Source: Oceanobacillus indicireducens (GTDB taxonomy: Bacteria > Bacillota > Bacilli > Bacillales > Amphibacillaceae). From it: DNA of 64,000 nucleotides. Location: positions 62,001 through 126,000 of the forward strand of contig NZ_BMOS01000009.1 in NCBI RefSeq assembly GCF_014647195.1, written 5' to 3'. Both the position numbers and the translations under genes were made by a program. Positions 16,185-53,846 of this stretch are shown here, piece by piece. A model generated the notes under the pieces. The model was not told the origin of the DNA, searched no databases, and was given only the letters and a program-made list of their open reading frames with translations. Numbering within the stretch: the first letter of the stretch is position 1; each line of letters opens with the position of its first letter.

Positions 16185-16321
16185 CATTCATTTAGCGTAT
16201 GTGTTTTGCTCATTCACTAATTTTAGGGTTCTAATCGACGTTCAGTTGCCCGGCGGAAAGCGAGAGGTGCCTGGACTGCGGACCTTCAGAAGTAAGTTGC
16301 ACATACTACGCTGAATGAGAG
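16185..16321. repeat. Repeat family R1, copy A (137 bp internal-deletion derivative)
   Basis: Ends are imperfect inverted repeats (left TTCATTTAGCGTATGT; right ACTACGCTGAATGAGAG). It has the two outer ends of the roughly 440-bp copies C and D, in the same orientation. The body is missing between GTTGCCCGGCGG and AAAGCGAGAGGTG, where the full copies have GCGG at both deletion edges. It abuts the -35 element of the sigX promoter. Confidence 0.85.
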
Positions 16322-16452
16322 TGATTAGTAGTTCTTTTTGAAAAAGCCTTTTATATTAAAATAAGGGTGTCTTGGGATGATTTGCTTTCTTTTTTAAGGT
16401 GTGAAGTCTAAATACTTTAGCGATGAAACTTGTATGTTCTAATTATAGATCA

Positions 16453-31132: not shown

Positions 31133-31689
31133 CTTCATCTCCCCCGTACGCTATATTGTAAAATGATACATTACTTTACCATATTAAAGAGGAAAACAAA
31201 AGCACAATGCCTTAAAAAAATTATAATTATGCACTCAACGCATCACTTTCATTCAGCGTAAGTGCAACTTTCATCTGGAAGTCCGCAGTCCAGACACCTC
31301 TCGCACCTGCTGAGCGGCTGGTGAGCCTCCTCGGGCTGCCGCCCTGCGGGGTCTCACCTATGCCTATCCTCCTGCAGGAGTCTCGAGGTGTCTGGACTGC
31401 TCAGAGGAAAGGCGTGATTTGGATTACTGTTTAATATTCCAGAAGTACAATCCTTATTATAACGGAATAATTTCTTTTTAAAATAATCCTTTAGACCAGT
31501 TCAGTTGCCCGGCGGACGGTGACTCCTACGGGAATAGCACGAGTCCAGACCTGAGCCGGAAGCGCTTTTCTTCCGAGGAGGCTGAGGCCGTGCCCGTGGA
31601 AAGCATCCGTCCGCCGGGCAACTGAACGGTAATTAGAACGCCAATAAAATGAATGCACAAAATACTTACGCTGAATGAAAGGGAACGAA
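31133..31689. other. 557-base intergenic region spoVAF/lysA
   Basis: Holds about 110 bases of A/T-rich DNA upstream of lysA and the full repeat copy B (31246-31681), which ends 8 bases from the spoVAF stop. No coding frame is credible. Confidence 0.85.
31246..31681. repeat. Repeat family R1, copy B (436 bp, inverted relative to A, C, D)
   Basis: Bounded by a perfect 18-bp terminal inverted repeat CTTTCATTCAGCGTAAGT (31246-31263) and its complement (31664-31681). Inside are two long hairpins: one with arms GCAGTCCAGACACCTC / GAGGTGTCTGGACTGC, one with arms CAGTTGCCCGGCGGACGG (31502-31519) / its complement (31607-31624). No flanking target duplication is obvious. Noncoding. Confidence 0.92.
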
Positions 31690-43259: not shown

Positions 43260-43767
43260 ACCATCTATCACCTTCGTTCAGCGTAAGTATTTTGCTCGTT
43301 TATTTAATTTAGCGCTCTAATCGCCGTTCAGTTGCCCGGTGGAAGAATGCTTTCCGCGGGCACAGCCGAAGCCTCGACGCACAGGACGTGGCGAACTTAG
43401 TCTAACTCGGGCTGAGCACTAAGGAGTCTCCGGACTCGTGCTATTCCCGCAGGAGTCACCGTCCACCGGGCAACTGAACTGGTAGGGATGATTACTTTGA
43501 ATGGAAATTATCTCCTCCCAATGAGCAAACATCGTACCTGTTAAATAATAGTGTTCTAAGTCAGGCCTTTCCTCGGAGCAGTCCAGACACCTCGAGACTC
43601 CAGCAGGAGGCTCACCAGCCGCCTGCGGAAAGCGAGAGGTGTCTGGACTGCGGACCCCCAGGAGAAAGTAGAAAGTTGCACTTACGCTGAAAGTAAAGGT
43701 ATACCTAGCTGTCTAAAAATACGGAAGTTGGATTAATAAGTAAACTATTTGTTTCGGAGGAAATCGC
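43260..43767. other. 508-base intergenic region GDPD/rnz
   Basis: Almost entirely occupied by repeat copy C (43272-43698); the remaining 69 bases carry the rnz ribosome site GGAGG. No separate gene seen. Confidence 0.85.
43272..43698. repeat. Repeat family R1, copy C (427 bp)
   Basis: Ends CTTCGTTCAGCGTAAGT and its imperfect complement ACTTACGCTGAAAGTAAAG. Two hairpin modules: arms GTTGCCCGGTGG / CCACCGGGCAAC (about 43330-43480) and GCAGTCCAGACACCTC / GAGGTGTCTGGACTGC (about 43580-43650). Relative to copy D its second module lacks the core between two AGGAGG direct repeats, and its first module has a different, longer core. Confidence 0.9.
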
Positions 43768-47517: not shown

Positions 47518-48642
47518 TTACTTTGTTGTTTCCATTACAATTGCTGTAATTAGTTCTGTAATTTTAATCAAATTGTCTATGGAGATTCTTTCTTTCGTCG
47601 TATGGATTTCTTCATAACCTACTGCAAGGTTCACGGTTGGAATTCCGAAACCAGCGATAATATTGGCATCACTGCCACCACCGCTTTTCAGCAGTTTACT
47701 TTCTCTACCAATCGATTTCGCGGCTCTTCTTGCCACTTCAACGACTTGGTCTCCACTTTCTTGTTTGTAGCCGGGATACATAAGCTTTATTTCTACTTCC
47801 GCTTCACCGCCAAGTTCACTCGCTGCGTGTTCAAACGCTTCTTTCATTGCTGCTGTTTGTTTATCGAGTTTCTTTTTGTCTAAGGAACGAGCTTCTGCAA
47901 TAATATCTACATGATCTGCAACGATATTCGTTTGTTGTCCCCCTTCAAAACGACCGATATTTGCCGTCGTTTCTTCATCGATCCTTCCAAGCGGCATCTT
48001 AGATACTGCTTTGGCCGCAATCGTAATCGCAGAAACACCTTTTTCCGGTTCGACTCCAGCGTGCGCAGTTTTCCCTTTAACGGTTGCGAAGATCTTCGCC
48101 TGATTAGGCGCTGCGACAATAATGTCACCAACATCACCATTACTGTCAATTGCGTAACCGTAATCAGCGTGAATAAGAGAAGCGTCTAATGCTTTAGCAC
48201 CTACTAGACCCGATTCTTCTCCGACTGTAATAATAAATTGAATATCTCCATGCTCCACATTTTCTTCTTTTAATAAACGAATCATTTCTAAAATTGCTGC
48301 AAGACCAGCTTTATCATCTGCGCCAAGAATGGTAGTACCGTCAGACTTAATATAGCCGTCTTCTATTACTGGCTGGATATTTTTCCCCGGTACAACGGTA
48401 TCCATATGGGATGTAAAATAAATAGTATCGCCATCCGATTTGGTCCCTTTAAGTGTACAGATTAAATTTCCTGCACCGTGACCAGTCTTTTCCTTTGCAT
48501 TGTCTTCTTTCACTTCAACCCCAAGTTCAGTGAATTTCTTTTTCAGTAATGCTGCAATTTCTGCTTCATATTTTGTTTCTGAATCCACTTGAACGAGCTC
48601 AAGGAATTCCTCTACTAATCTTGTTTCATTTACTGTGACCAT
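47518..48642 (-). CDS. yqjE: M20/M42-family metallopeptidase, PepT-like (YqjE)
   Basis: 374 residues. Zinc-ligand and catalytic motifs SHMDTV, GADDKAG, VGEESGLVGAK, YAIDSNGD and a final HTTKE are visible. Annotated in relatives as tripeptidase T-like; substrate unproven. Cytosolic. AGG before the ATG. It follows the carboxylase gene, from which it is separated by the short element at 48681-48921. Confidence 0.9.
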   Translation of the reverse strand: MVTVNETRLVEEFLELVQVDSETKYEAEIAALLKKKFTELGVEVKEDNAKEKTGHGAGNLICTLKGTKSDGDTIYFTSHMDTVVPGKNIQPVIEDGYIKSDGTTILGADDKAGLAAILEMIRLLKEENVEHGDIQFIITVGEESGLVGAKALDASLIHADYGYAIDSNGDVGDIIVAAPNQAKIFATVKGKTAHAGVEPEKGVSAITIAAKAVSKMPLGRIDEETTANIGRFEGGQQTNIVADHVDIIAEARSLDKKKLDKQTAAMKEAFEHAASELGGEAEVEIKLMYPGYKQESGDQVVEVARRAAKSIGRESKLLKSGGGSDANIIAGFGIPTVNLAVGYEEIHTTKERISIDNLIKITELITAIVMETTK

Positions 48643-48680
48643 TATTTAACCTCCAATTACTCTTATTAAATTATAGTGTG

Positions 48681-48921
48681 TGTTCAAAAAAGAAGCAAGG
48701 TCGGCTAAGTAGTAAGGTGGCCTTGGCAAATTCGCCCCTAACGTACTATGCGCCGAAACTCGAGGTTGCAAGAGCTCTCCGTACCGGAATAAGCTGGTGA
48801 GACATGAGAAATGCAAAAGCAAGCCACCCAGCTTATCACTTATGTGACGGATTCTATACCATTCGGCTTAAGTAGAACTTCTACATTCATGAAGTGCCCT
48901 TTAAACAAGACTTTTTGAACA
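48681..48921. mobile_element. Putative 241-bp MITE-like element
   Basis: Noncoding stretch bounded by perfect 10-bp inverted ends TGTTCAAAAA (48681-48690) and TTTTTGAACA (48912-48921). Inside are further complementary stretches (GGTGGC near 48717 with GCCACC near 48823). It begins five bases after the carboxylase stop codon. No target duplication is obvious and no second copy is in the window. Confidence 0.55.
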
Positions 48922-48926
48922 ACCTC

Positions 48927-50489
48927 TTATAAAGGTATATTTCCATGTTTTTTATGAGGACGTTCTTCCTCTTTGTTCCGCAGCATTTCTAAAGCTTGAA
49001 TAAGCTTAATTCTCGTTTCCCTTGGATCAATGACGTCATCAACCATACCTAGACCTGCAGCTATGTAAGGGTTAGCGAATTTCTCGCGGTAGCTTGCAAT
49101 TTTCTCTGTCCGCAAGCTTTCCGGATTTTCACTTTCAGCGATTTCCTTTGCGTATAGAATATTAACTGCTCCTTCTGGACCCATTACAGCTATTTCAGCG
49201 TTCGGCCAAGCGAAAACGAGGTCAGCACCGATTGACTTACTGTTCAATGCTACATAAGCTCCGCCAAATGCTTTTCGCGTAATCACCGTAATTTTTGGAA
49301 CAGTTGCTTCTGAGTAAGCATATAAAATTTTCGCCCCATGACGTATAATACCACCATGCTCTTGTTTTACACCAGGGAAAAATCCGGTAACATCTTCAAA
49401 AGTGATAATCGGTATATTAAAGCAATCACAGAAGCGAATGAATCGGGAAGCTTTATCACTTGAATCAATATCAAGTCCACCGGCCATATATTTCGGCTGA
49501 TTACAGACAAGACCAACTGCTTCACCTTTAATCCTAGCAAAGCCAACGACGATATTTTTCGCGAAATCTTGATGAATCTCAAAGAAACTATCTTCATCAA
49601 CAATCGCTTCAATAACCTGCTTTACATCATACGGACGAACTGGATCAAAGGGAATGAGATCTGCTAAATTTAAACGGAGCTCTTCTTCCATTCGTTGCTC
49701 CTCATATGGCTGTCGCTTAGGCTTCTCTTCAAAATTCGCTGGAATATAGGATAATAGTTTTCTTACTGTATCAAGAGCAGCTTCTTCAGTTAGAGTTCTT
49801 ATATGCGCATTTCCGCTTTTTGTATTATGGATCGAAGCTCCGCCAAGGTCCTCTGAAGATATTTTCTCTCCAGTAACCGCTTCAATCACTTTCGGTCCCG
49901 TAATGAACATTTGTGAGGTCTTCTCCACCATTATGACAAAATCAGTTATTGCAGGTGAGTAAACCGCTCCACCCGCACTTGGACCCATAATAACTGAGAT
50001 TTGCGGAATAACACCTGAATAGATGGAGTTGCGATAAAACACATGCCCATAGCCGTCCAATGAAGAGACACCTTCCTGGATGCGTGCGCCGCCTGAATCG
50101 TTCAATCCGATAAACGGTACCTTTGATTTGGCTGCAAGGTCCATTACAGCCGCAATTTTTTCTCCATGCATCTCACCAAGAGCACCGCCATAAACAGTAA
50201 AGTCTTGGGCAAATAAATAGACAGGTCTTCCATCGATTTTTCCGTAGCCTGTTACAACTCCCTCTCCCTTACCGCTTGAGTTACCGTTCATGCTAAAGTC
50301 AGACGTGCGGGTTTCAATAAAGGGATTCAGTTCTACAAAACTTCCTTCATCCAGAAGATAATCAATACGTTCCCTTGCAGTCATTTTCCCTTTTTCATGC
50401 TGCCTTTTAATTCGTTCGTCCCCTCCGCCTAGTTCAACTTCCCTCCGTTTATCATACAACTCATTAATCTTATCATACATATCCATCAT
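48927..50489 (-). CDS. yqjD: Acyl-CoA carboxylase beta subunit (propionyl-CoA carboxylase / methylmalonyl-CoA decarboxylase family, YqjD)
   Basis: 520-residue carboxyltransferase with acyl-CoA site GGARIQEGVSSLDGYG and carboxybiotin site GGAYVAL. Transfers a carboxyl group between biotin and propionyl-CoA. No biotin carboxylase/BCCP gene is in the window, so the alpha partner must lie elsewhere. Start ATG 50487-50489 after AAGGAAG, overlapping the fusion-gene stop by 4 bases. Context with epimerase and mutase supports the propionyl-CoA direction. Confidence 0.9.
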   Translation of the reverse strand: MMDMYDKINELYDKRREVELGGGDERIKRQHEKGKMTARERIDYLLDEGSFVELNPFIETRTSDFSMNGNSSGKGEGVVTGYGKIDGRPVYLFAQDFTVYGGALGEMHGEKIAAVMDLAAKSKVPFIGLNDSGGARIQEGVSSLDGYGHVFYRNSIYSGVIPQISVIMGPSAGGAVYSPAITDFVIMVEKTSQMFITGPKVIEAVTGEKISSEDLGGASIHNTKSGNAHIRTLTEEAALDTVRKLLSYIPANFEEKPKRQPYEEQRMEEELRLNLADLIPFDPVRPYDVKQVIEAIVDEDSFFEIHQDFAKNIVVGFARIKGEAVGLVCNQPKYMAGGLDIDSSDKASRFIRFCDCFNIPIITFEDVTGFFPGVKQEHGGIIRHGAKILYAYSEATVPKITVITRKAFGGAYVALNSKSIGADLVFAWPNAEIAVMGPEGAVNILYAKEIAESENPESLRTEKIASYREKFANPYIAAGLGMVDDVIDPRETRIKLIQALEMLRNKEEERPHKKHGNIPL

Positions 50490-53274: not shown

Positions 53275-53317
53275 ATTTCTTATTGATTCCACGTTCACAT
53301 CTGAAAACTGCCCATCG

Positions 53318-53761
53318 CTTCCATACAGCGTAAGTGTCTGCTCTTTCACTATTAAGGGCTCTAATCGCCGTTCAGTTGCCCGGTGGACGGATGCTTTCCG
53401 CGGGCACAGCTGGAGCCTCCTCGGGCTACCGCCCTGCGGGGTCTCCAGACTCGTGCTCTTCCCGCAGGAGTCACCGTCCACCGGGCAACTGTACTGGTAA
53501 GATGATTATTATTGAAAGCATTTATTCTAGTCCCATGTCACGATCCAAATTATATCTGTGGAATAATAAAGAGTGATCTAAGTTGGGCTTTCCCTCGGAG
53601 CAGTCCAGACACCTCGAGACTCCTGCAGGAGGAAAGGCATAGGTGAGACCCCGCAGTACGCAAAGCGTACGAGGAGGCTCACCAGCCGCCTGCGGAAAGC
53701 GAGAGGTGTCTGGACTGCGGACCTCCGGAAGAGAGTTACAGACACTTACGCTGTATAAAAG
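53318..53761. repeat. Repeat family R1, copy D (444 bp)
   Basis: Terminal inverted repeats share ATACAGCGTAAGTGTCTG at both ends. Module 2 arms CAGTTGCCCGGTGGACGG (53373-53390) / complement (53474-53491), perfect 18 bp. Module 1 arms GCAGTCCAGACACCTC (53600-53615) / complement (53703-53718), perfect 16 bp, with a core hairpin GTACGC-TTT-GCGTAC nearby. Same orientation as copies A and C. Confidence 0.92.
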
Positions 53762-53846
53762 GAATTCAGTTTATTCTTCAGTTTATTTTAAGTTTTATAA
53801 AGAAATGTTTAGTTATTTTAGGGTATGTAAGGTTGAGCTATGTAGT

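Follow-up and report, generated by a model that had tools for sequence, protein, structure and literature searches.

At positions 31234-31681 of the window, by which we mean the whole 64,000-nucleotide stretch of Oceanobacillus indicireducens DNA that was analysed, lies an intergenic repeat with two long internal palindromes. The initial annotation offered two interpretations of this and similar sequences nearby, namely that they are miniature inverted-repeat transposable elements (MITEs) moved by a transposase encoded elsewhere, or that they are structured RNA or DNA elements. The locus hence raises the question of which description applies, and whether one precludes the other.

Repeat copies within the window

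All four related repeats listed in the initial annotation were recovered in place, and their components are as follows.

Copy A, 16185..16412, strand (.): deletion derivative retaining a single composite hairpin; inner ends at 16186 and 16320
Copy B, 31234..31681, + strand: the element under study; inner ends at 31247 and 31680, two hairpins inside
Copy B hairpin 1, 31285..31400, + strand (GCTTTCC strand +): base stem GCAGTCCAGACACCTC; cmsearch 66.1 bits, E 2.7e-19
Copy B hairpin 2, 31504..31622, - strand: module of hairpin 1 in inverse orientation; base stem CAGTTGCCCGGCGGACGG; cmsearch 61.3 bits, E 9.6e-18
Copy C, 43271..43697, - strand: orientation opposite to B; neither outer end recognisable
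Copy C hairpin, 43331..43475, + strand: CAGTTGCCCGG-type; E 1.9e-17
Copy C hairpin, 43578..43651, - strand: GCAGTCC-type, shortened; E 1.3e-11
Copy D, 53287..53837, - strand: both outer ends recognisable, approximately 551 bp; inner ends at 53319 and 53760
Copy D hairpin, 53375..53489, + strand: CAGTTGCCCGG-type; E 1.4e-28
Copy D hairpin, 53600..53718, - strand: GCAGTCC-type; E 2.5e-30

The two long palindromes ascribed to each element were present in copies B, C and D (cmsearch E 1.3e-11 to 2.5e-30), where they form two hairpins flanked by inverted CATTCAGCGTAAGT-type ends, and copy B was inverted relative to C and D, as had been noted. A size near 440 bp holds for these three copies (approximately 430 bp) but not for copy A, which is shortened, with parts of both hairpins fused at 16185-16320 as by deletion. 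The elements, at about 430-550 bp, encode no credible gene, in agreement with the initial annotation: a check of the window copies for open reading frames of at least 80 amino acids returned just two within copies B-D, of 80 amino acids each and touching copy D, and a 139-amino acid frame overlapping the edge of copy A. At the gathering threshold, Rfam gave no match within the window.

The inverted repeats described as terminal are indeed shared between copies but proved to be subterminal, in that the flanks continue past them at both ends of the elements and about half of these flanks reach an outer end, CTCAACTTTCRCANCCTGAAA. In copy D both outer ends could be read (TTCCACGTTCACATCTGAAA with four mismatches and CTCAACCTTACATACCCTAA with five, spanning approximately 53287 to 53837), whilst copy A has a possible outer right end near 16412 (TTTAGACTTCACACCTTAAA read inward, four mismatches) and no recognisable outer left end. 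Copy B retains, as judged by eye, a remnant of its outer left end (CTCAAC at 31234-31239). The same scan of the window also yielded isolated, chance-level matches at six mismatches.

Copy number and gene context

When the end CTTTCATWCAGCGTAAGTG was searched against the 3.87-Mb genome at up to three mismatches, 74 forward and 70 reverse matches were obtained, compared with none for a reversed-pattern control. These 144 matches are thus not attributable to chance and correspond to approximately 72 elements, or an average of one per 54 kb. The high genome-wide copy number predicted in the initial annotation was thereby borne out, though not the density of one per 16 kb from which it had been extrapolated; with four copies in 64 kb, the window represents a dense patch. 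The repeats are accordingly neither confined to four copies lacking conserved ends nor fragments of a larger coding element. With copy B as the query, at least 75 matching rows were retrieved (40 of 108 candidates scored), the full-length matches being 71-93% identical, and assembly gaps occur in no fewer than three of the elements displayed (L023, L028 and L030). Searches of a plasmid collection gave partial matches in two records, and those of a phage collection gave no match.

Gene contexts, derived with a simple ORF caller, could be assigned to 44 elements, of which 28 lie in co-directional, 13 in divergent and three in convergent gaps; two other settings gave 28/13/4 and 28/12/3, respectively. 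The proposal that the elements sit at the boundaries of transcription units is therefore true only loosely, as 28 of the 44 separate co-directional genes.

Outer ends and a candidate transposase

The outer motif was first spotted by eye and then seeded into a motif search of 101 flanks, which placed TTACTCAACTTTCACAGCTTAAAACA in an estimated fraction of 0.54. A total of 39 flanks scored at least as high as the best of 101 reversed-sequence controls (12.75 bits), and in these the motif is 31 to 151 bp away from the inner end, on its outer side; the other 62 scored no higher than the control. Across the genome the outer-motif pattern had 23 matches, against none in the control. Of 159 genomes of the family, this one is practically alone in carrying the subterminal end, with 127 matches at up to two mismatches, against at most five in any other. 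Two genomes of another genus of the family (G081 and G084) carry an end variant, TTTCATTCAGCGTAGGCG, repeated four and five times. In this genome, loci on contigs 5 and 28 (L395 and L397) combine CTCAAC outer ends with an interior that reads by eye as approximately 50-bp tandem repeats, flanked by hairpin remnants.

One of the 23 outer-motif matches (three mismatches in 22) was found to be the end of a 1531-bp insertion sequence, so that the search for a transposase with matching ends, suggested in the initial annotation, was answered within the same genome:

Contig 22, 48135-49665 (L394, L401): IS4-family insertion sequence; 460-amino acid frame; 7-bp duplication CTCCATA

The 460-amino acid frame matches NCBIfam NF049925 (transpos_IS4_4) at 604 bits, relative to a cut-off of 250, and the ends of the element read CTCAACTTTCGCAG. 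It interrupts a gene resembling, by eye, that of a trypsin-type protease, and is the only full-length copy in this genome. The same family was identified in five other genomes, with ends CTCAACTTTCGCA[GC]; over eight loci, including that of this genome, the duplication is an exact 7 bp at six, 6 bp at one and absent at one. The repeats differ from this insertion sequence in having no transposase, and blastn against 50 element loci detected no shared interior; the strongest matches were weak (E 0.015-0.052) and aligned the end of the insertion sequence with the outer ends of L004, L007 and L021. Given the match between the outer ends of the repeats and those of an IS4-family element of this genome, a DDE transposase of the IS4 type is the most likely mover, as judged from these sequences. 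Within the window this reading is limited by copy B, which has no recognisable right outer end, and by copy C, which has neither.

Target duplications were then assessed in 16 elements, picked by hand, for which both outer ends had been placed. Five of these matched at five or more of seven flank positions (1.2 expected), compared with 18 of 240 cross-pairs, and three matched at six or more, compared with 7 of 240; the remaining 11 elements had fewer than five duplicated positions. A looser 6-bp test, in which two registers were allowed and the insertion sequence was included, gave 9 of 17 against 26 of 272. The duplication signal in this genome is weak but positive, which is to be expected given that the copies are old (71-93% identity to copy B) and most have since decayed.

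Equivalent elements in related genomes

Hairpins related to those of copy B are found well beyond this genome, as 45 of 57 other relatives gave matches at E 0.001. Six genomes of the same genus with at least ten matches (G007, G014, G016, G018, G022 and G024) carry elements with different ends, GGCTNTTTTCNNAAANNTTGTTG. Any such GGCT-type end was present in 12 of 26 genus genomes, whilst the genome under study yielded none at up to one mismatch. The elements with GGCT ends hold none, one, two or more hairpins. Target duplications, which the initial annotation had proposed as a diagnostic, were clear in these relatives: 18 of 28 placed elements have an 8-bp duplication matching at seven or eight positions, against 36 of 756 cross-pairs. 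The hairpin module is therefore carried by at least two types of vehicle.

Some elements of this second type have other contents. Three of them in G007 (L119, L131 and L153) are 183-184 bp in length with exact 8-bp duplications, and L119 and L131 hold an unrelated palindrome, TTTCAGAAAGGAAAACGC, whilst an element of G022 (L120, 1500-2331) is filled, as judged by eye, with tandem repeats of approximately 50 bp and not with hairpins. Flanks of the form GGCTGTGTTAAA...TTTAACACAGCC were seen in Neobacillus, by eye only.

The 8-bp duplication and GGCT start led to the guess that an ISL3 transposase moves these elements, an 8-bp duplication being fitting for ISL3. Over 30 loci examined, however, the readable ISL3 ends differed from those of the elements (for instance GGCTCTATACTAAATGTTGG), and ISL3 was rejected as the mover; the ISL3 copy of the genome under study has ends GGGTATTCGG. 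Inspection by eye of the starts of long ORFs at nine unpaired-end loci revealed no transposase that would mark an autonomous GGCT element. An automatic finder of ends plus duplication returned just two cases (L219 and L222) from 96 hairpin clusters of other genera, 84 of which were single hairpins.

Conservation and covariation of the hairpin module

The two hairpins of an element represent a single module of approximately 120 nt in opposite orientations. Within this module, the blocks GCTTTCCGCGGGC, AGCCTCCTCG, TGCGGGGTCT and CCCGCAGGAGTC are nearly invariant and the stems between them vary. Three of these blocks were part of the exact pattern with which the named genomes were scanned (other hairpin sets being gathered by a fuzzy pattern), hence their conservation is inflated; the fourth, CCCGCAGGAGTC, was free to vary and is equally well conserved. 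The exact scan retrieved at least 112 stretches, and the 80 titles listed among those matches were all Bacillales by name, with the exception of one 'Arthrobacter' and one 'Pseudomonas'. The latter two contigs (L230 and L284) carry the Bacillales hairpin and their records are probably mislabelled or contaminated.

Among 258 hairpins, the 188 with the best pairing displayed 97 distinct 12-mer base stems. Of 99 candidates, 75 were printed and 66 were aligned, nine having been left out by hand, either as odd-looking (L215, L220 and L233) or because their groups were already represented (L264, L266, L269, L270, L272 and L275). In this alignment 17 of 27 pairs vary on both sides, and the covariation score was 0.359, compared with 0.124 (sd 0.008) in shuffled alignments, none of 500 reaching the observed value, and at most 0.116 in slid structures. 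One of the five measures, the number of further pair types, did not rise above the shuffles (136 of 500). With a covariance model the hairpin was located in 86 genomes of the class out of 299 sampled (this genome counted among them), with 77 matches in one genome of 2.6 Mb. Covarying stems and nearly invariant loops, found in hairpins from many genera, also uphold the second interpretation in the initial annotation, that of a structured RNA or DNA element. Some hairpins (L009, L030 and L151) are extended close to the apex by an additional segment (GCAGACTAAG...CCACGTCCTGTGGC... or CTTGTTCCCTTGCACCGAGGAAGC), which suggests nested insertions.

Strand asymmetry and similarity to tsr24

The Rfam family RF02577, the Staphylococcus aureus sRNA tsr24, matched 7 of 12 sources with sub-threshold scores, and each of these matches fell on the GACTCC strand. 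The core GACTCC..GGGA..GAAGACC..GGCTGAG..CCC..GGAAAGC is common to tsr24 and the module on the same strand in all seven matches, yet the module stays below the 50-bit gathering threshold, with a best score of 33.5 bits and 29.3 bits for hairpin 2 of copy B (the same hairpin in L001). A literature search found no paper naming tsr24. Separately, a candidate T-box leader was seen at L019 3009-3230 (89.8 bits, Rfam threshold 93).

Other asymmetries were apparent between the two strands. On the GACTCC strand, G-U pairs in the variable stems outnumber A-C pairs by approximately 1.6-2 to 1 (42 to 21 or 46 to 29 in two countings, p 0.011 and 0.064), and the mean RNA folding energy is -66.0 kcal/mol, compared with -62.9 kcal/mol for the other strand. 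Two nearly invariant pairs point the other way: the opposite strand has U-G at these positions (in 66 of 66 and 61 of 66 hairpins), which corresponds to C-A on the GACTCC strand. Outside this genome, the 102 gaps that hold single hairpins were co-directional in 66 cases, convergent in 33 and divergent in three (49 + 17, 15 + 18 and 2 + 1 in the named and second sets, respectively); the second set comprised 36 contexts after eight loci had been excluded, namely one locus from this genome, loci with inverted pairs and a duplicate. In the co-directional gaps, the GACTCC strand followed the direction of the genes in 34 of 49 and 11 of 17 cases (45 of 66, p 0.004), the second set alone not being significant (p 0.33). 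In sum the strand evidence leans weakly towards RNA, and is partly contradicted by the U-G pairs of the other strand.

Alternative explanations

These asymmetries would also be expected of a host RNA element, such as a 3'-UTR structure or an sRNA distantly related to tsr24, in which the terminal repeats are secondary captures and mobility is not what maintains the hairpin. The single-strand bias of the tsr24 matches, the rarity of divergent contexts outside this genome, the co-directional orientation, the G-U excess and the greater stability of the GACTCC strand as RNA all favour it. The G-U excess is weak, however, the orientation bias is not significant in the second set alone, the two C-A pairs fall on the very strand that would be the RNA, and the tsr24 gathering score was never reached; moreover, 13 of 44 elements in this genome occupy divergent gaps and the relatives have units with ends and duplications, such that we regard this explanation as somewhat unlikely. 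We consider it clearly less probable still that the stems, free of any selected function, are kept complementary by template switching within DNA hairpins. Over their first 12 positions, the 188 stems are mostly Watson-Crick (1956 pairs, with 15 G-T, 34 A-C and 251 other), as template switching would produce, but the nearly invariant internal loops are left unexplained by it, including CCCGCAGGAGTC, which lay outside the scan pattern.

A role as bidirectional transcription terminators or insulators is improbable. Long, stable hairpins in intergenic DNA, and divergent gaps nearly devoid of them outside this genome, might suggest such a role, but no T-tract directly follows the stems in eight copies inspected by eye, only 3 of 44 elements in this genome lie between convergent genes, and the internal loops, for which a simple terminator has no need, are more conserved than the stems. 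The 13 elements in divergent gaps likewise indicate that these are not simply terminators. The pairing of inverted hairpins also recalls REP/REPIN elements, paired inverted palindromes moved by RAYT proteins that act on single-stranded DNA hairpins, and long Y1_Tnp proteins of RAYT-like size are encoded in this genome and in many relatives. Yet the hairpin (three of four blocks) lies within approximately 300 bp of the gene in only 1 of 20 RAYT-like regions (L358), and the inverted ends of the elements come with duplications of 7 or 8 bp, which are not made by single-strand transposition; we therefore rejected mobilisation of this kind, which we view as highly improbable. In relatives, the RAYT-like Y1 transposase genes of L361, L348 and L367 adjoin, by eye, Mg-chelatase/ComM-like genes.

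Discussion

The high copy number, ends that match those of an IS4-family insertion sequence, and target duplications (clear in relatives, weak here) together support the MITE interpretation, with at least two types of vehicle, and the structured RNA or DNA interpretation is likewise supported; the two are not exclusive. We consider, with a probability of about 0.7, that the repeats are gene-less mobile elements with IS4-type ends and an IS4-type mover in this genome, carrying a conserved hairpin module, a reading built upon the directly observed copy number and ends, an insertion sequence whose ends match and which has a duplication, the conserved and covarying hairpin, and the differing vehicles.

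Under this mobile-element reading, the IS4-type DDE transposase encoded elsewhere in the genome would move the elements by cut-and-paste, and their insertion into intergenic DNA would generate 7-bp target duplications, most copies having since decayed. Between the ends lie two inverted copies of a module more widespread than this vehicle, which in relatives is found in elements with GGCT... ends and 8-bp duplications. The hairpin may owe its persistence to selection for its structure, possibly that of an RNA read from the GACTCC strand; with two modules facing opposite ways, an element would then always present one of them in sense.

Short, non-coding, intergenic repeats in many copies are well known, and BOX elements are modular. 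The elements bcr1 (Bacillus cereus group), RUP and NEMIS are named as MITEs (PMC3733652) and BOX is tabulated in PMC2267715; by the descriptions given there, the repeats of this study resemble all four and differ from them in having two inverted hairpins of one module and more than one kind of terminal repeat. The stem-loop families Bhal-1 (74 bp, 36 copies), Efa-1 (163 bp, double hairpin) and Sta-1 (105 bp), from B. halodurans, E. faecalis and S. aureus (PMC2267715), are described as intergenic repeats of Bacilli of similar size and, as far as description alone allows comparison, may overlap with the hairpin module. Searches of the open-access literature, judged from titles, found no paper on these repeats or the hairpin.

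Whilst MITEs are known, a cargo far better conserved than its vehicle is unusual, and for one genome a concrete transposase candidate has been identified. We tentatively suggest that a structured RNA (or single-stranded DNA) module found across the Bacilli may persist by changing vehicles, in that unrelated transposase systems would spread it whilst its loops remain nearly fixed, and the inverted pair would guarantee one sense copy whichever way an element lands. If the hairpin is functional, it would constitute an abundant and largely unnamed structured element of the Bacilli, and would connect the annotation of a staphylococcal sRNA with mobile repeats.
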